Below are positions 15,496 to 22,241 of a stretch of DNA of 48,660 nucleotides, piece after piece; the first letter of the stretch is position 1; every line of letters starts with the position of its first letter. Source of the DNA: Actinomycetota bacterium (GTDB lineage: Bacteria; Actinomycetota; Acidimicrobiia; Acidimicrobiales; VFJN01); NCBI GenBank assembly GCA_009886035.1, contig VFJN01000136.1, positions 1 to 48,660 on the forward strand, in the 5' to 3' direction. Position numbers and translations under genes: made by a program. Below the pieces are notes generated by a model. The model did not search any database. It had not been told where the DNA came from and worked only from the letters and a program-made list of their open reading frames with translations.

Positions 15496-16659
15496 CTACG
15501 CCCCGGTGATTTCCGAGAAACGCTCGTCGAAGGCGGCTTCGGCCTCGGGGTCGAGATTCGCAAAGACACTGAGCCGGTCGAGGGTGGCGGCGTCGGGGAA
15601 CAGGAGCTGGCTCTTCGCCAGGGCCTGCTGCGCCTCGTCCCCGGCGGCCATGACGGCCTGAACCCCCTCCACCGGTGTGTTGTAGCCCACGTAGCTCGTG
15701 ATGCGAGCGGCGTTTTCAGGGTCGTAGAGGTAGTTCATCCATTTGGCGGTGTTGGCCGCATTCGTCGACCCCGAAGGAATGACCATCACGTCGCTCCACT
15801 GCATCCCCCCCTCGTCGGGGATAACAAAGCGAATATCGGGGTTATCAAGCGATAGTTGCAAGACGTCGCCAGACCACCCGATGCAGGCGGCGTAGTTACC
15901 GGTAGCCAAATCGTCCATGTAGTCGTTGCCGGTGAATTGCCGTATCTGTCCGCTGGAGGTGGCGTCCTCGATCATGGAAAAGGCCTCGGTGGCACCCTCA
16001 AAAGTGGCCTTAGTGGGGTCCTGGCCGGTGAGCAGCATCGTAAGGCCAACGGTGTCGCGCATCTCGAGGAGCATCCCCACCCGTCCCTTGAACGCCGGAT
16101 CGAACAGGTCGCCCGTGCTCGTCAACTCCCGGCCCGTCTCGGCAATGTTGTAGGCGATCCCGGTCATACCCGAGGCGTAGGGAAGCGAGAAGCGACCATC
16201 CGGATCCCAGGCCGGCTTGCGCAATTGGGGAACGAGGTTGGCGGCATTCGGGATGTTGTCGAAGGGGACCTCCTGCACCCAGCCCAGGTCGATCAGCCGG
16301 GCGGCCAGCCAAAAGGTGGGCGTGATGATGTCGGGACCGATCGACTTCTTGGCGGCTAGGTCCGCCTGCACCTTGGCGAAATACTCGTTGTTGTCGTTGA
16401 ATCCCTCGGTGTATTTGAAGTCGAGACCGGAGTCTTTTCTGAACAGGTCGAGCGTCTCTTCATCCATGTAGGCGGGCCAGTTGTCGTGCCAGAGCGCGTT
16501 CGACGGGCCACCGGCGCTTTCGTCGTCGCTACCGCAGGCGGCGAGAAGGCCCGGACCGACCACACCGGCAGCGGCCAGCGCGCTCATCCGAGCGATCAAT
16601 GTCCGGCGCGAGAGCAATGGGCCACCCGAAAGGCGGGGAGGTACAGGGTTAGTGGTCAT
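15496..16659 (-). CDS. potD: Polyamine-binding lipoprotein PotD
   Basis: 387 residues, an extracytoplasmic substrate-binding protein. The N-terminus has a twin-arginine-like LLSRRTLIARM followed by a hydrophobic stretch and the lipobox LLAACG (Cys42), so it is probably a Tat-exported lipoprotein. The mature part begins ALWHDNWPAYMDEETLDLF, equivalent to the NWxxYxxxxxLxxF opening of PotD/PotF, and contains GMTGIAYN and ACIGWSGD blocks expected in polyamine binders. Which polyamine it prefers cannot be read here. Its ATG overlaps the potA stop (ATGA). Confidence 0.92.
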   Translation of the reverse strand: MTTNPVPPRLSGGPLLSRRTLIARMSALAAAGVVGPGLLAACGSDDESAGGPSNALWHDNWPAYMDEETLDLFRKDSGLDFKYTEGFNDNNEYFAKVQADLAAKKSIGPDIITPTFWLAARLIDLGWVQEVPFDNIPNAANLVPQLRKPAWDPDGRFSLPYASGMTGIAYNIAETGRELTSTGDLFDPAFKGRVGMLLEMRDTVGLTMLLTGQDPTKATFEGATEAFSMIEDATSSGQIRQFTGNDYMDDLATGNYAACIGWSGDVLQLSLDNPDIRFVIPDEGGMQWSDVMVIPSGSTNAANTAKWMNYLYDPENAARITSYVGYNTPVEGVQAVMAAGDEAQQALAKSQLLFPDAATLDRLSVFANLDPEAEAAFDERFSEITGA

Positions 16660-17834
16660 TCTGGGCCTTCTTTCACGAGACTATTTTCTGAGGTCATACC
16701 GGTGGGAACCAGATAGGAGTCGGCGCGGGGCCAGGCCGCCCAGGCGTTGTCACCGCGGGCCAGACCATTGAGCGAGTGGCCATCGCTGAGGTGGGCCACC
16801 ATAGTGGAACCATCATTTCCGGTGATCCCTACGTGCACGGTGGCTCCGCGGAAAATCACCTCGTGTACCAGCACGGGCACTCCATCGAAACCCTCAGGGG
16901 GTGGGTTCCGCCCCACCTGCACCCGCTCCGGCCGGATCATCACCAACACCTTACTCCCGATACCTATCCCGCCATCGGAGGGAACCGAGAGGGTTCCACC
17001 CGACACCGCCACCGCCGCCAGGCCGGCATCCGCCCGCTCGACCGTTCCCGGCAACAGATTGGCCTCGCCGATGAACCCGGCCACAAACGGCGTCGCCGGC
17101 CGATGGTAGATCTCTGCCGGGGTGCCGATCTGCTCCACCCAACCATCGCTCATCACCGCGATGTGATCGCTCATCGTCAGTGCTTCTTGCTGATCGTGAG
17201 TAACAAAAACAAAGGTGACGCCGGTATCGCGCTGGATGCGCTTCAGTTCGAGTTGCATCGCCTGCCGCAGTTTGAGGTCCAACGCCGCCAGGGGCTCATC
17301 GAGCAAGAGCGCCGACGGCTTGTTCACCAAGGCGCGGGCTAGGGCCACTCGCTGCTGCTGGCCACCAGAGAGTTGGGCGGGACGGCGCGTGGCGAAGTCG
17401 TTCATGCGCACGATTTCCAACATCTCGCCCACTTGCTGTGTTATGTCCCGCTTCGGCACCTTCCGGCTCCGAGGACCAAACGCCACGTTGTCGAACACCG
17501 ACATGTGGGGAAACAGCGCGTACTGCTGAAAGACGGTGTTGACGTTTCGCCGGTAGGCCGGGGTTCGCGAGACGTCCTCTCCATCAAGAAAAATCTTCCC
17601 CGAGGTTGGCGATTCGAATCCGGCAATCATGCGCAGGGTTGTCGTCTTGCCACAGCCAGAAGGGCCGAGCATCGAAAAGAACGACCCGCGCTCGATGCCG
17701 AAACAGGCGTCCTGCACGGCCACGAAATCAGCGAAGCGTTTGGCGACGTGATCAAGGACGATCACATCGGTTGAGGGATCAGCGACCTCGGCCATCCTCA
17801 CCTCGGTTGACCCTGACGGATTTACCTGGCTCAC
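16656..17834 (-). CDS. potA: Polyamine ABC transporter ATP-binding protein PotA
   Basis: 392 residues. Walker [10 protein letters not shown] (57-65), the Q-loop in [16 protein letters not shown] signature [15 protein letters not shown], Walker [13 protein letters not shown]-loop [12 protein letters not shown]-terminal TOBE-like regulatory domain follows from about residue 270. It powers import through PotBC. I used the GTG at 17834 (GGGAG 9 nt upstream); the ATG at 17795, with a GAGG site, would also preserve every motif. First gene of potADBC; only 48 nt separate it from the divergent FAD oxidase, so the two promoters must overlap. Confidence 0.93.
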
Positions 17835-17882
17835 GCCACTACGCTCCCACAGAACCCGAGAAGTTACTTACCATTGGTTGCC

Positions 17883-19163
17883 ATGATCACTCATCTTTCG
17901 CCCGGATATGCGCCGGGCGTGCTCTGGCAGGAAACCGCCACCCCCCACCCGATAGCACCGCAGCCACTGCCGGACGCGGTTGATGTCGTCATCATTGGCG
18001 GCGGCTACTGCGGCCTCTCGGCGGCGACCGAACTGGCTCAGCGGGGCCGATCGGTGGCGATTCTCGATGCCCACGATCTTGGATGGGGTGCGAGCACCCG
18101 GAACGGTGGAATGGTCCTGCCCGACCTCAAGGCCGGGCCGGAGTCGCTCACTAAGCGCTACGGCGAACTCGGGCTTCGCCTCCACGCCGCCGTCGAAGCT
18201 GCCTTCGACCACGTGGAGCACGTGATCGCCGCCGGATCCATCGACTGTGCCTACGAACGCACCGGCCAGCTCTACCTGTCACACGGCCAGCGGGCGCCGG
18301 CCCACCTCGACGCCCTGGCGATCGAGTTGGCCTCAGTTGGATCCGCCGCTCATGTGGTGCGGGGAGATGCGCTGCGCGCCGAGGTGGGCTCCGCCGCGTT
18401 CTCCGCTGGCCTCGTGGTTGAGCGCAGCGGGGGGCTGCACCCCGCCCGGTTCCATGCCGGCCTCACCCGATTAGCGGCGGCGGCGGGGGCCTCGTTGCAC
18501 CCCCACACTCCAGCCACGGCGGTGACCCAGGCCGCTACCCGCTGGCGCGTGTCCACCCCCCGGGGGGATATCGATGCCGAACACGTCTTGCTGGCCACCA
18601 ACGCCTACGCCGACTCCCTCGTACCCGCCCTGCGACGCCGAGTTCTTCCCATGGGGTCGTTCATCATCGCGACCGAGCCACTGGCTCCCGAGGTCGCCCA
18701 GGCCGTTCTCCCCACCGGCCGCATGTGCTTCAACGACCGCCATCTGCTGTGGTACTGGCGCCTCGATGACGCCGGACGGATGGTGTTTGGCGGACGAAAA
18801 CGACTGGGCAGCGTGGGTCTAGAGGAGGCGCGCGACTACCTCTATCAATCGATGCTCGAGATCTACCCGCAACTGGCGGGAACCAAAGTGGAACGCACCT
18901 GGGGGGGCCAGGTGGCCCTCACCCTCGATCGTCTCCCCCACTGCGGGCAGGTCGGAGGTCTTTGGTATGCGACAGGCTGCAACGGCTCGGGCGTGGCGCT
19001 CAACACATGGCTGGGCCATCGTATGGGAGCAGCCATCGACGGCGAGCCCCTCCCAGCCTTTGCCGAGTTGCCGCCCCGACCCATCCCGCTGCACTCGTTG
19101 CGGCGAGTATGGCTACCCGTCGTCTCGGCGTGGTTCCACCATCAAGACAGGAGAGCCTCGTGA
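17883..19163 (+). CDS. FAD-dependent amine oxidoreductase (DAO family, PuuB-like)
   Basis: 426 residues. The dinucleotide-binding fold is at 34-44 (VVIIGGGYCG), followed by SAATELAQRG and the GWGASTRNGGM segment typical of DAO-family oxidases related to gamma-glutamylputrescine oxidase. A late WGGQVALTLDRLPHCG block contacts the isoalloxazine, followed by ATGCNGSGVAL. It should oxidise a secondary or primary amine to an imine, with O2 or another acceptor. Divergence from potA points to a polyamine or derivative as substrate. No glutamyl-polyamine synthetase gene is present, so the substrate need not be gamma-glutamylated. The ATG at 17883 is preferred to the TTG at 17874. Its stop overlaps the next start (GTGA). 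Confidence 0.8.
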   Translation: MITHLSPGYAPGVLWQETATPHPIAPQPLPDAVDVVIIGGGYCGLSAATELAQRGRSVAILDAHDLGWGASTRNGGMVLPDLKAGPESLTKRYGELGLRLHAAVEAAFDHVEHVIAAGSIDCAYERTGQLYLSHGQRAPAHLDALAIELASVGSAAHVVRGDALRAEVGSAAFSAGLVVERSGGLHPARFHAGLTRLAAAAGASLHPHTPATAVTQAATRWRVSTPRGDIDAEHVLLATNAYADSLVPALRRRVLPMGSFIIATEPLAPEVAQAVLPTGRMCFNDRHLLWYWRLDDAGRMVFGGRKRLGSVGLEEARDYLYQSMLEIYPQLAGTKVERTWGGQVALTLDRLPHCGQVGGLWYATGCNGSGVALNTWLGHRMGAAIDGEPLPAFAELPPRPIPLHSLRRVWLPVVSAWFHHQDRRAS

Positions 19164-20377
19164 AAATCCTCGTAGTGGGTAGTGGTGGGGTTGGGTCGGC
19201 GTTCGCCATGATCGCCCGGAGGCGCACCTTCTTCGAGCAGGTGGTGCTCGCAGACCTCGACGAATCCCGCGCCGTCATGGCCGCCGAAGCCACCGGTGAT
19301 CCACGTTTCATCGGCGTGGCTCTTGATGCGTCGAACCGGGATGAGGTAGCCACCTGCGTCCGGGCCCACGGATGCACCCACGTCCTGAACGCGGCCGACC
19401 CTCGGTTCGTGATGCCGATCTTTGGTGGGGCATTCGATGCGGGCGCCACCTACCTCGACATGGCCATGTCGCTGTCGAAACCACACCCGTCCCAGCCCCA
19501 TCAACAGCCCGGGGTGAAGTTAGGAGATGAGCAGTTCGAGCAGGCGCCGGAGTGGGAAGAACGCGGGTTGCTGGCCCTGGTGGGTATGGGGGTGGAGCCG
19601 GGCCTTTCGGATGTGTTCGCCCGTCATGCCGCCGATTCCCTCTTCAGCACCATCAGCGAATGTGGCGTCCGAGACGGCGCCGACCTCGTGGTGGATGGGT
19701 TTGCCTTCGCCCCCACGTTTTCCATCTGGACCACCATCGAAGAATGTCTGAACCCGCCAGTGATCTGGGAAAGGGACCGAGGCTGGTTCACCACCCCACC
19801 CTTCTCCGAGCCCGAGACGTTCGTGTTCCCCGAGGGGATCGGCCCCGTTGAGTGTGTGAACGTGGAACACGAGGAAGTACTCCTCATCCCGCGCTGGGTC
19901 GACTGCGACCGCGTCACGTTCAAGTACGGCCTCGGCGACGAGTTCATCGAGGTGCTTCAGGTGCTCAACAAGATCGGGCTCGACCGTACCCCCACGGTAA
20001 AAGTGCGGGGGATGGATGTGTCTCCGCGCGACGTCGTGGCGGCCTGCCTCCCCGACCCCGCCAGCCTGGGCGACCGCATGCGGGGCCGCACCTGCGCCGG
20101 TACCTGGGTCACCGGCACCGGTCTGGATGGCCGTCCCCGGGAGGTGTACCTCTACCATCTGGCCGACAACGAAGAGACCATGCGACGCGATAATTCCCAA
20201 GCCGTTGTCTGGCAGACCGCCATCAACCCGGTCGTGGCGCTGGAACTGCTCGCCACGCAGGCCTGGTCGGGGACGGGGGTACTCGGACCGGAGGCCTTCC
20301 CGGCGCAGCCATTCCTCGACCTGCTCGTCGACCACGGCTCACCGTGGGGCATGGAAGAACGCACCCCCCCACCCTGA
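19160..20377 (+). CDS. Saccharopine dehydrogenase-like NAD(P)-binding protein
   Basis: 405 residues. The N-terminus VKILVVGSGGVGSAFAMIARRR is a Rossmann GxGGVG motif with an acidic end to strand 2 (LADLDES). Later blocks GVEPGLSDVFARHAAD and the C-terminal TCAGTWVTGTGLDGRPREVYLYH match the saccharopine-dehydrogenase/carboxynorspermidine-synthase superfamily. These enzymes form or break C-N bonds between an amino acid or amine and an oxo-compound by reduction of an imine. Being coupled to an amine oxidase (4-nt overlap, AGGAG site) beside pot genes, it may act on polyamines or lysine derivatives; this is inference. Confidence 0.75.
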   Translation: MKILVVGSGGVGSAFAMIARRRTFFEQVVLADLDESRAVMAAEATGDPRFIGVALDASNRDEVATCVRAHGCTHVLNAADPRFVMPIFGGAFDAGATYLDMAMSLSKPHPSQPHQQPGVKLGDEQFEQAPEWEERGLLALVGMGVEPGLSDVFARHAADSLFSTISECGVRDGADLVVDGFAFAPTFSIWTTIEECLNPPVIWERDRGWFTTPPFSEPETFVFPEGIGPVECVNVEHEEVLLIPRWVDCDRVTFKYGLGDEFIEVLQVLNKIGLDRTPTVKVRGMDVSPRDVVAACLPDPASLGDRMRGRTCAGTWVTGTGLDGRPREVYLYHLADNEETMRRDNSQAVVWQTAINPVVALELLATQAWSGTGVLGPEAFPAQPFLDLLVDHGSPWGMEERTPPP

Positions 20378-20405
20378 TCCCCGCCGGGGTCTCCTCGGTC
20401 GGTCA

Positions 20406-20442
20406 CTCCCCCGCCGGCCGCCCCTGTCGCCCACCGGGGGAG
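20406..20442 (+). terminator. Possible terminator hairpin after the saccharopine-dehydrogenase-like gene
   Basis: CTCCCCC (20406-20412) pairs exactly with GGGGGAG (20436-20442) around a 23-nt GC-rich loop, 28 nt past the stop at 20377. No T-tract follows. It separates this operon from the helicase promoter. Confidence 0.4.
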
Positions 20443-20506
20443 AGCGGGTTGACGTTGGAGACGGTAGCCACCCCATGCCGATAGTGGTGGTGGGGGCGGG
20501 AACCGC

Positions 20507-20512
20507 TATAAT
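20507..20512 (+). promoter_or_regulatory. Consensus -10 box (TATAAT) of the helicase gene
   Basis: A perfect TATAAT in GC-rich DNA, placing the transcription start near 20518-20520 and giving a leader of about 160 nt before the ATG at 20679. No good -35 lies 16-18 nt upstream (GTGGTG at best); a TTGACG at 20449 is too far away. Confidence 0.6.
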
Positions 20513-20519
20513 GATGGGG

Positions 20520-20663
20520 CGCCAGCAGTCGCTGGCGGGCCGTGTCGAGCTGTGGCTTGAGACTGCCACCCCTCAGCAGCGGACGAATCGCTGCACTCGA
20601 CACGAGATCGGCCCCCCGTCGATCTATCCCATCGAGTGTGCGCGCGTCCCTGCCCCCTCGATG
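20520..20663 (+). ncRNA. Highly structured 5' leader of the DEAD-box helicase mRNA
   Basis: Five perfectly paired stems fill this stretch. P1: CGCCAGC/GCTGGCG (20520-20537, AGTC loop). P2: 9-bp CGTGTCGAG (20541-20549) with CTCGACACG (20596-20604), enclosing two hairpins, P2a GTGGC/GCCAC (20552-20569) and P2b GCAGCG/CGCTGC (20576-20594, loop GACGAAT), that is, a three-way junction. P3: AGATCG/CGATCT (20605-20625) with a C-rich loop, directly abutting P2. P4: CATCGAG (20630-20636) with CTCGATG (20657-20663), ending 2 nt before the AGGAGA ribosome-binding site. P1 begins at the predicted transcript start. No U-tract is present, so control of translation or mRNA stability is more likely than attenuation. 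I match it to no named RNA family. Confidence 0.6.
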
Positions 20664-20678
20664 CAGGAGAACCCCCCC

Positions 20679-22241
20679 ATGTCCCCCACCTTTGCCTCAC
20701 TCGGCGTGCCCGCTCGTCTGTGCGAGCGCCTGGACGTCCTCGGTATCGCCGATCCGTTCCCGGTACAGGCCGCCACCCTTCCCGATGCCCTCGCCGGCCG
20801 CGACGTGTGCGGAAAGGCCCCGACCGGCTCCGGCAAGACGATCGCCTTCGGCCTTCCGTTGCTGGCCCGAGTTGAAAAGGCGGCCCCCCGCCGCCCCAAA
20901 GCACTCGTGTTGGTACCCACCCGGGAACTGGCGTCGCAGGTACAAGACCAACTCATGGCCCTGTGCTGGGGCACCAAAACCGAGGTGCTGGCGGTGTACG
21001 GCGGTGCCGGCATGGACCGCCAGATGCGGGCCCTCGCCAAGGGCGTCGAAGTCGTGGTGGCCACCCCCGGTCGCCTCAAAGACCTTCTCGAGCGCGGCTC
21101 GTTGCGCCTCGACGACGTGAGCATCGTGGTGATCGACGAAGCCGACCGCATGGCCGACATGGGGTTCCTCCCTGAAGTCCGTCGCCTCCTCGACCTCACC
21201 AACAAGAAACGTCAGACCATGCTCTTCTCCGCCACCCTCGACGGCGATGTCGACGTGCTCATCCGCAATTACCAAACGAACCCGGTGCATCACGAGGCGG
21301 CATCGCTCGAGGTGCAGGGCGAGGTCACCCATCGCTTCTGGGCCGTGTCCCACGGAGAGCGCATCGAGGTGGCCACCGCCATTGTGCAGCGCTGCTGGCC
21401 GGCCATCGTCTTCAGTCGGACCCGCCACGGTGCCGAGCGTCTGTCGAAACAACTGAACAAGGCCGGCATTCGCTCCGAGGCCATTCACGGTGACCGCAGC
21501 CAGAGCCAGCGCGAGAAGGCCTTGCGAGCGTTCGGCAAGGGCGATGTGCACGTACTGGTGGCCACCGACGTTGCCGCTCGCGGCATCCACGTGGACGGGG
21601 TGGCCTGCGTTTTGCAGTACGACCCGCCCGCCACCGACAAGGACTACGTCCATCGCTCCGGTCGCACCGGCCGGGCCGGCGAGCCGGGAACGGTGATCAC
21701 GCTCGTCTCCCCCGAAAAGGAAAAAGACGTGCGCAAGATGCAGCGGGAACTTCGGCGCCGGGAGCCCATCGAGACGGCGACCGTGGCCACCGCCGCCTCG
21801 ATACTGGCCGCCACTCCGGCCCCGCCGGTGGACCGTGGTGACGGTCTCGACGGCGTGTCCCGCCGCGAACGGGCCCGGGCCGAGGACCGGCCCCGTTCGG
21901 ACCGTTCGGCTCGTCCGGCTCGGCCGCCTCGTTCGGACCGGCCGGCTCGTCCGGAGCGTCCGGACCGTTCGGCTCGTCCGGAGCGTTCGGACCGTTCGGC
22001 TCGTCCAGAGAGTCCGACTCGTCCGGCTCGTCCCAGCAGCTCCACCAACCCCAAGCCCACCCGGGGTAAGGGACACCGCAAGGGCGAAAGCCCCCGGGCG
22101 GTGTCCGAGGGGGATTGGACCCCCCGCCCCAAGCCGGCCAGCACCGGCGGCAAAGCCAAGCCCGGTAGACGACCCACTGGTGCTGGAGCCGCCCGCCCGG
22201 GCCGCCCCGCCAGTGGCAACGCACGCCGACGCAGCAGCTAA
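20679..22241 (+). CDS. DEAD-box ATP-dependent RNA helicase (RhlE-like)
   Basis: 520 residues. Core helicase at about 1-365: FASLGVPARLCERL (Q-motif region), motif I APTGSGKT (47-54), Ia PTRELA, Ib TPGR, II DEAD (153-156), III SAT, IV-V VFSRTR and ATDVAARGIHV, VI HRSGRTGR (325-332). From about 400 to the end is a basic, disordered tail rich in Arg, Ser, Pro, with RSDRSARP/ARPERPDRSARPE-type repeats, likely for RNA binding. It unwinds structured RNA, for example in ribosome assembly, decay or cold adaptation. The ATG at 20679 has AGGAGA 9 nt upstream; an in-frame ATG at 20661 falls inside leader stem P4 and is less likely. The long upstream frame is not coding. Confidence 0.93.
   Translation: MSPTFASLGVPARLCERLDVLGIADPFPVQAATLPDALAGRDVCGKAPTGSGKTIAFGLPLLARVEKAAPRRPKALVLVPTRELASQVQDQLMALCWGTKTEVLAVYGGAGMDRQMRALAKGVEVVVATPGRLKDLLERGSLRLDDVSIVVIDEADRMADMGFLPEVRRLLDLTNKKRQTMLFSATLDGDVDVLIRNYQTNPVHHEAASLEVQGEVTHRFWAVSHGERIEVATAIVQRCWPAIVFSRTRHGAERLSKQLNKAGIRSEAIHGDRSQSQREKALRAFGKGDVHVLVATDVAARGIHVDGVACVLQYDPPATDKDYVHRSGRTGRAGEPGTVITLVSPEKEKDVRKMQRELRRREPIETATVATAASILAATPAPPVDRGDGLDGVSRRERARAEDRPRSDRSARPARPPRSDRPARPERPDRSARPERSDRSARPESPTRPARPSSSTNPKPTRGKGHRKGESPRAVSEGDWTPRPKPASTGGKAKPGRRPTGAGAARPGRPASGNARRRSS
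21888..22036 (+). repeat. Imperfect tandem repeats coding the helicase tail
   Basis: Units of the kind CGTTCGGACCGTTCGGCTCG and CGGCTCGTCCGGAGCGT recur with small changes, coding alternating RSDRSARP and ARPERPDR peptides. The repetition makes this tract prone to length change by slippage. Confidence 0.65.

Follow-up and report, generated by a model that had tools for sequence, protein, structure and literature searches.

CrhR of Synechocystis is an RNA helicase that feeds back on its own gene (PMC3485376). The locus described here is likened to crhR in that it encodes a DEAD-box RNA helicase and may depend on this product for its own expression; it differs in that the part of that account drawn on here concerns CrhR-dependent transcript accumulation and protein stability, with no defined leader fold. 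Ribosomal protein leaders (PMC7247131) and the rne 5' UTR (PMC10989929, abstract) likewise are structured 5' leaders on one RNA-binding or RNA-processing gene, and such autogenous leaders of RNA-binding proteins have lineage-specific structures for orthologous genes, as is the case here. Unlike in those systems, the protein is a helicase, and no Rfam leader model matches.

The window, by which we mean the whole 48,660-nucleotide stretch of DNA that was analysed, is contig 33 of a 2.7-Mb draft genome, and the records related to it in public collections are those of uncultured Acidimicrobiales. About 300 non-coding bases precede the following gene.

20679 to 22241, plus strand: DEAD-box RNA helicase gene, 520 aa (Pfam DEAD, 1.6e-48; Helicase_C, 1.1e-28)
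20665 to 20669, plus strand: ribosome-binding site AGGAG, read from the sequence, 9 nt before ATG 20679 and conserved in position

The nearest NCBIfam models to the helicase are CshA, RhlE2, DbpA and RhlE, all below cut-off, and no NCBIfam equivalog claims the 520-aa protein. Its C-terminal tail (21834-22238 in the window) is a low-complexity, basic repeat rich in R, S, P and D (RPERPDRSARPERSDRSARPE...), which, from its composition, is possibly RNA-binding or condensate-forming. The preceding saccharopine-dehydrogenase-like gene ends at 20377, where a polyamine-like gene cluster (16656-20377) also ends; this cluster consists of a PotA-type ABC ATPase (16656-17834, minus strand), an FAD amino-acid oxidase resembling L-pipecolate oxidase (17874-19163) and a carboxynorspermidine-synthase-like dehydrogenase (19163-20377). 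An imperfect GC-rich inverted repeat with 15-nt arms (80%) and no T run follows at 20406-20442 and may be an unusual type of terminator.

The leader was compared among five loci in four genomes of the genus, namely the window and three other genomes, one of which (G002) has two copies. The initial annotation had described a perfect TATAAT upstream of the leader and a series of stems, P1, P2 enclosing P2a and P2b as a three-way junction, P3 and P4; the hexamer and all helices were found as placed, except that the last stem ends 1 nt and not 2 nt before AGGAGA.

20507 to 20512, plus strand: -10 promoter element TATAAT, read from the sequence; a -10-like hexamer lies at the same place in 5/5 genus loci
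20520 to 20537, plus strand: P1 hairpin, 7 bp (20520-20526/20531-20537), paired in 5/5 loci
20541 to 20549, plus strand: P2 5' strand CGTGTCGAG, invariant in the five loci, partner 20596-20604
20552 to 20569, plus strand: P2a hairpin, 5 bp (20552-20556/20565-20569), loop TTGAGACT, within the near-invariant block 20538-20573
20576 to 20594, plus strand: P2b hairpin, 6-7 bp, with a variable loop, paired in four loci, with one mismatch or bulge in G001
20596 to 20604, plus strand: P2 3' strand CTCGACACG, invariant, closing the three-way junction (P2, 9 bp)
20605 to 20625, plus strand: P3 hairpin, 6-7 bp (20605-20611/20619-20625), adjoining P2, its register lost or shifted in G001
20630 to 20663, plus strand: P4 hairpin, 7 bp (20630-20636/20657-20663), p 0.04 against shuffles in the window

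Judging from the spacing to the -10 element, transcription would start at about 20518-20519. The -10 hexamers of the five loci (TATAAT, TATAGT, TATAGT, TACAGT and TAGGGT) lie at a fixed distance from P1, and a search for a -35 element of the leader promoter gave no match. The leader (20518-20680) folds at -74.6 kcal/mol, compared with -58.3 +/- 4.0 for shuffled sequences (z -4.1; 1 of 200 shuffles as stable), and its folding z lies between -2.3 and -4.5 across all five genus loci. Neither an intrinsic terminator nor an attenuator was found in the leader.

In the most distant copy, G001, where the helicase is 83% identical and third codon positions are 57% identical, the three-way junction is 90% identical to that of the window, and the block 20538-20573 matches at 35/36 positions (97%, against the 57% of third codon positions); identity falls to 52% in P3 and to 66% over the stretch P3-P4. 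Both P2 arms are invariant in the five loci despite the diverged P2b loop and P3, and P1 in G001 has one C-G pair replaced on both sides by U-A and one A-U pair turned into G-U. P1 and the junction are, on the evidence of their conservation, under selection at the nucleotide level, as expected for an RNA fold. P3, with GU substitutions in G003 and G002, and P4, with one internal mismatch each in G002:C14 and G001, are weaker elements, and P4 is poorly conserved. The covariation hoped for in P2, P2a and P2b was not seen, the change in P1 being the sole two-sided one; these helices barely vary among the five copies known in the searched collections, which are too few to test the P2/P2a pairing. 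A likeness of the P2b loop to the tRNA T-loop CGAAT, suggested from the window, was rejected, as the loop reads GACGAAT, GCCGAAT, TACGAAT, TGCGTAT and GACGAGAT in the five copies.

A covariance model of the window class (R3) finds 5/5 helicase copies in the 4 genus genomes, each match lying before the helicase, and gives no match elsewhere in 298 genomes of the order; outside the genus, the pattern TGTGGCTTGAGACTGCCAC with 2 mismatches allowed has just five scattered two-mismatch matches. The window leader is therefore a genus-level element whose fold does not extend beyond the genus. Orthologous leaders lacking conserved pairing, which the initial annotation had held would speak against its proposal, are not what is seen within the genus. 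Across the genus loci and the 298 genomes the structured, conserved leader is restricted to the helicase gene, which is how an autogenous leader is expected to be distributed. Two helicase copies in G002 (C14:28018-29235 and C101:1088-2308; proteins 96% identical), each with its own leader, may reflect a duplication or a mixed assembly.

Leaders of the orthologous helicases are generally structured across the order. In a set of about 110 orthologous helicases, the leaders have a mean z of -1.34 compared with -0.21 for neighbouring genes (Mann-Whitney p 1e-6), and several classes can be told apart among them. Class A (model R1) is built of five helices, in which 11/34 pairs show two-sided changes against 4.5 in shuffles; a blind genome search with it gave matches in 48/397 genomes from 24 genera, and 30/30 fetched matches lie directly before the orthologous helicase. 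Its leader (L045:2347-2503 and loci L136-L165) has a conserved GGGTTCGCAGACGGG...TGGTTC core. Class B is an element of three helices with covariation (3 two-sided pairs against 0.5), found as GCCGCACCGGGTGGAGGCCAGCG...CGCTTCCCCGGTGATCACACGGC upstream of the helicase in L044, L046, L053, L054, L066, L069, L079 and L110. Class C (model R2; L072:2422-2496 and loci L166-L185) comprises a P1-like hairpin, GGGCC and GGCC, and in its blind search 23/30 fetched genome matches precede the helicase, among them every one of the 21 that score above 36 bits. The 3' end of its covarying terminal stem, which occurs as AGUCGG/CCGACU, CAGUUGGC/GCCGACUG, CAGUGGCC/GGCCACUG, UCGAGUU/AACUCGA and GUCGAAUCGG/CCGAUUCGAC, adjoins or overlaps the ribosome-binding site at its GGAG. 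Because bases of this stem are also used in a GGCC:GGCC pairing, a sequestering and a freeing fold would compete, and on its sequence the class C leader looks like a translational switch. Two more groups upstream of the helicase (L047, L051, L055, L059 and L083; L023, L062 and L077) each share sequence within the group and none with the other classes.

In a tree of 105 helicases each leader class sits on one clade (support 100/99 for A, 82/91 for C and 100/100 for the window genus), class B nearly so. Two other genera of the family of the window genus carry class C, and the window genus has its own class. Features common to all classes were also sought. A hairpin adjoining the SD, tried as a general rule for classes A and B, is no more frequent than chance would give in GC-rich sequence. 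A hairpin followed by GGG, proposed as common to all leaders, was discarded: it occurs in 32/96 against 18.6 +/- 3.5 in shuffles, but mainly through class A (21/78 against 14.4 +/- 3.2 without it).

Two of these classes resemble the window leader. In class A, too, a P1 hairpin runs straight into the 5' strand of a multi-branch element that is closed and bears two hairpins; another hairpin and the SD come next, ahead of the same helicase gene. Its sequence and pairs, however, are different, and it was rejected as a homologue, R1 giving no match in the genus loci (E <= 10) or genus genomes. Class C shares a P1-like hairpin followed by GGGCC, alternative pairings and a stem beside the SD, whereas its helicase belongs to another clade and the window genus lies outside the class C clade. 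R2 aligns to P1 and the 36-nt block (20521-20584; 13.7 bits, E 8.6e-4 in 341 nt), and against the genus leaders over 360 kb it reaches E 0.3-1.3, which is not significant genome-wide; by sequence-only profile the match is not above shuffles, of which 12/60 score as high. With a suggestive covariance-model match, a non-significant sequence profile and a helicase tree that places the window genus outside, class C was not accepted as a homologue, and common descent of the two leaders is possible.

The junction does not have the leader to itself. When folding of the growing transcript was predicted, the three-way junction was the MFE of transcripts ending at 20605 to 20632; once 20633-20640 is transcribed, an alternative helix becomes available.

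20593 to 20639, plus strand: competing helix 20593-20600/20632-20639, which excludes P2, P2b and P4 and is the MFE in 4/5 loci

For the full leader, the competing helix belongs to the MFE in those four loci and the described junction fold is the MFE in one; the fold given by the initial annotation thus stands for the growing transcript to about 20632, but it is not the MFE of the full window leader. Against shuffles the competing helix has p of about 0.02-0.04 in four loci and 0.57 in G001, where another competitor (20542-20549/20657-20664) forms fully as well. Folding predictions therefore make it likely that the leader is bistable between the junction and a competing pairing; we grade this no higher because the p values in the four loci are of that size and the helix differs in G001.

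On sequence grounds, 20520-20669 is most likely a structured 5' leader of the helicase mRNA that acts in cis on this one gene, controlling its translation or stability. P1 and the P2/P2a/P2b three-way junction are, from conservation, its selected core. According to the folding predictions, the junction would form first during transcription, and later segments would either invade P2 or make P4 next to the ribosome-binding site, and the balance of the two outcomes may then set ribosome-binding site loading or message stability. Action at translation or mRNA stability is favoured by the lack of any terminator-like site. The helicase would be the likely effector, given that it remodels RNA and that its gene is the one to which several leader classes are attached; by unwinding or binding its own leader it could shift the balance and limit its own synthesis, possibly more so in the cold. 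The control is probably autogenous. The agreement of leader class with helicase clade does not point to autoregulation in particular, since any cis element would be expected to follow its gene in this way. We give the explanation as a whole, a cis leader whose fold balance is shifted by the helicase itself and limits helicase synthesis, about an even chance of being right.

Temperature is the first alternative to this feedback. The leader might refold with temperature and be read by the ribosome or cold-shock proteins, independently of the helicase; RNA helicase genes are often cold-induced, as described for RhlE of Caulobacter (PMC5472812) and crhR (PMC3485376), and two nearly equal folds are predicted. 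The predicted helix probabilities, however, are nearly constant from 10 to 37 C, and no Rfam thermometer or cold-shock leader matches, so that we consider a purely temperature-driven leader unlikely; low-temperature control is plausible in itself, and these probabilities lend it no support. Somewhat less probable again is an element of mRNA stability, in which the 5'-terminal P1 and the junction would protect the message against ribonucleases, or the leader would itself be cut by one. P1 starts 1-2 nt downstream of the inferred 5' end in 5/5 genus loci, and feedback acting through a leader is known from the rne 5' UTR (PMC10989929, abstract), but a simple hairpin would need neither an invariant 36-nt block nor the long-range P2 pairing.

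A riboswitch that binds some small molecule with no relation to the helicase would also suit the junction, with its invariant loop on a hairpin, and what may be an expression platform next to the SD; a metabolite sensor would, however, be expected on other genes too, whereas this leader is on one gene only and the orthologues have leaders of other classes, which makes such a sensor very improbable. We regard as equally doubtful that a transcription factor uses P1 as a palindromic operator, with the remainder incidental: P1 does form a perfect inverted repeat shortly after the -10 element, and its change in G001 preserves the symmetry, yet the strongest conservation is in P2/P2a, and P2 arms 46 nt apart are not operator-like. 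An N-terminal extension or upstream ORF from ATG 20514 (GRVELWLETAT, open in the window, the peptide kept in 4/5 loci) was rejected as scarcely credible, since a stop interrupts the frame in G003, single-base indels shift it in G001, the block shows no synonymous change where third positions average 57% identity, and a proper SD precedes ATG 20679, where the orthologues begin.

The proposal that the leader belongs to no known RNA family agrees with Rfam 15, which gave no match reaching the gathering threshold over the whole window, nor any at E <= 10 in 20380-20720; 20 related loci of classes A, B and C gave none either, and literature searches returned no description of such leaders in actinobacteria. 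What the initial annotation observed is thereby confirmed and extended, and its interpretation is supported in part. Taken alone, the window leader is a small genus-level case of something already known, a cis-acting leader RNA; of more interest is that one helicase gene carries several leader classes not documented before. For the order as a whole, we tentatively propose, as a possibility that we would not yet favour, that bistable leaders of several unrelated or much diverged classes, each with its own helicase clade, let the helicase sense its own RNA-remodelling activity, such that a scarce helicase would leave one kinetically trapped fold and an abundant one would bring about the fold blocking the ribosome-binding site. 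The control of DEAD-box helicase levels in bacteria is poorly known, and at least three leader classes absent from Rfam (A, C and the window class, with B likely a fourth) sit on one helicase gene in many families; they are ready substrates for testing whether a helicase gauges its own activity by how its mRNA folds.
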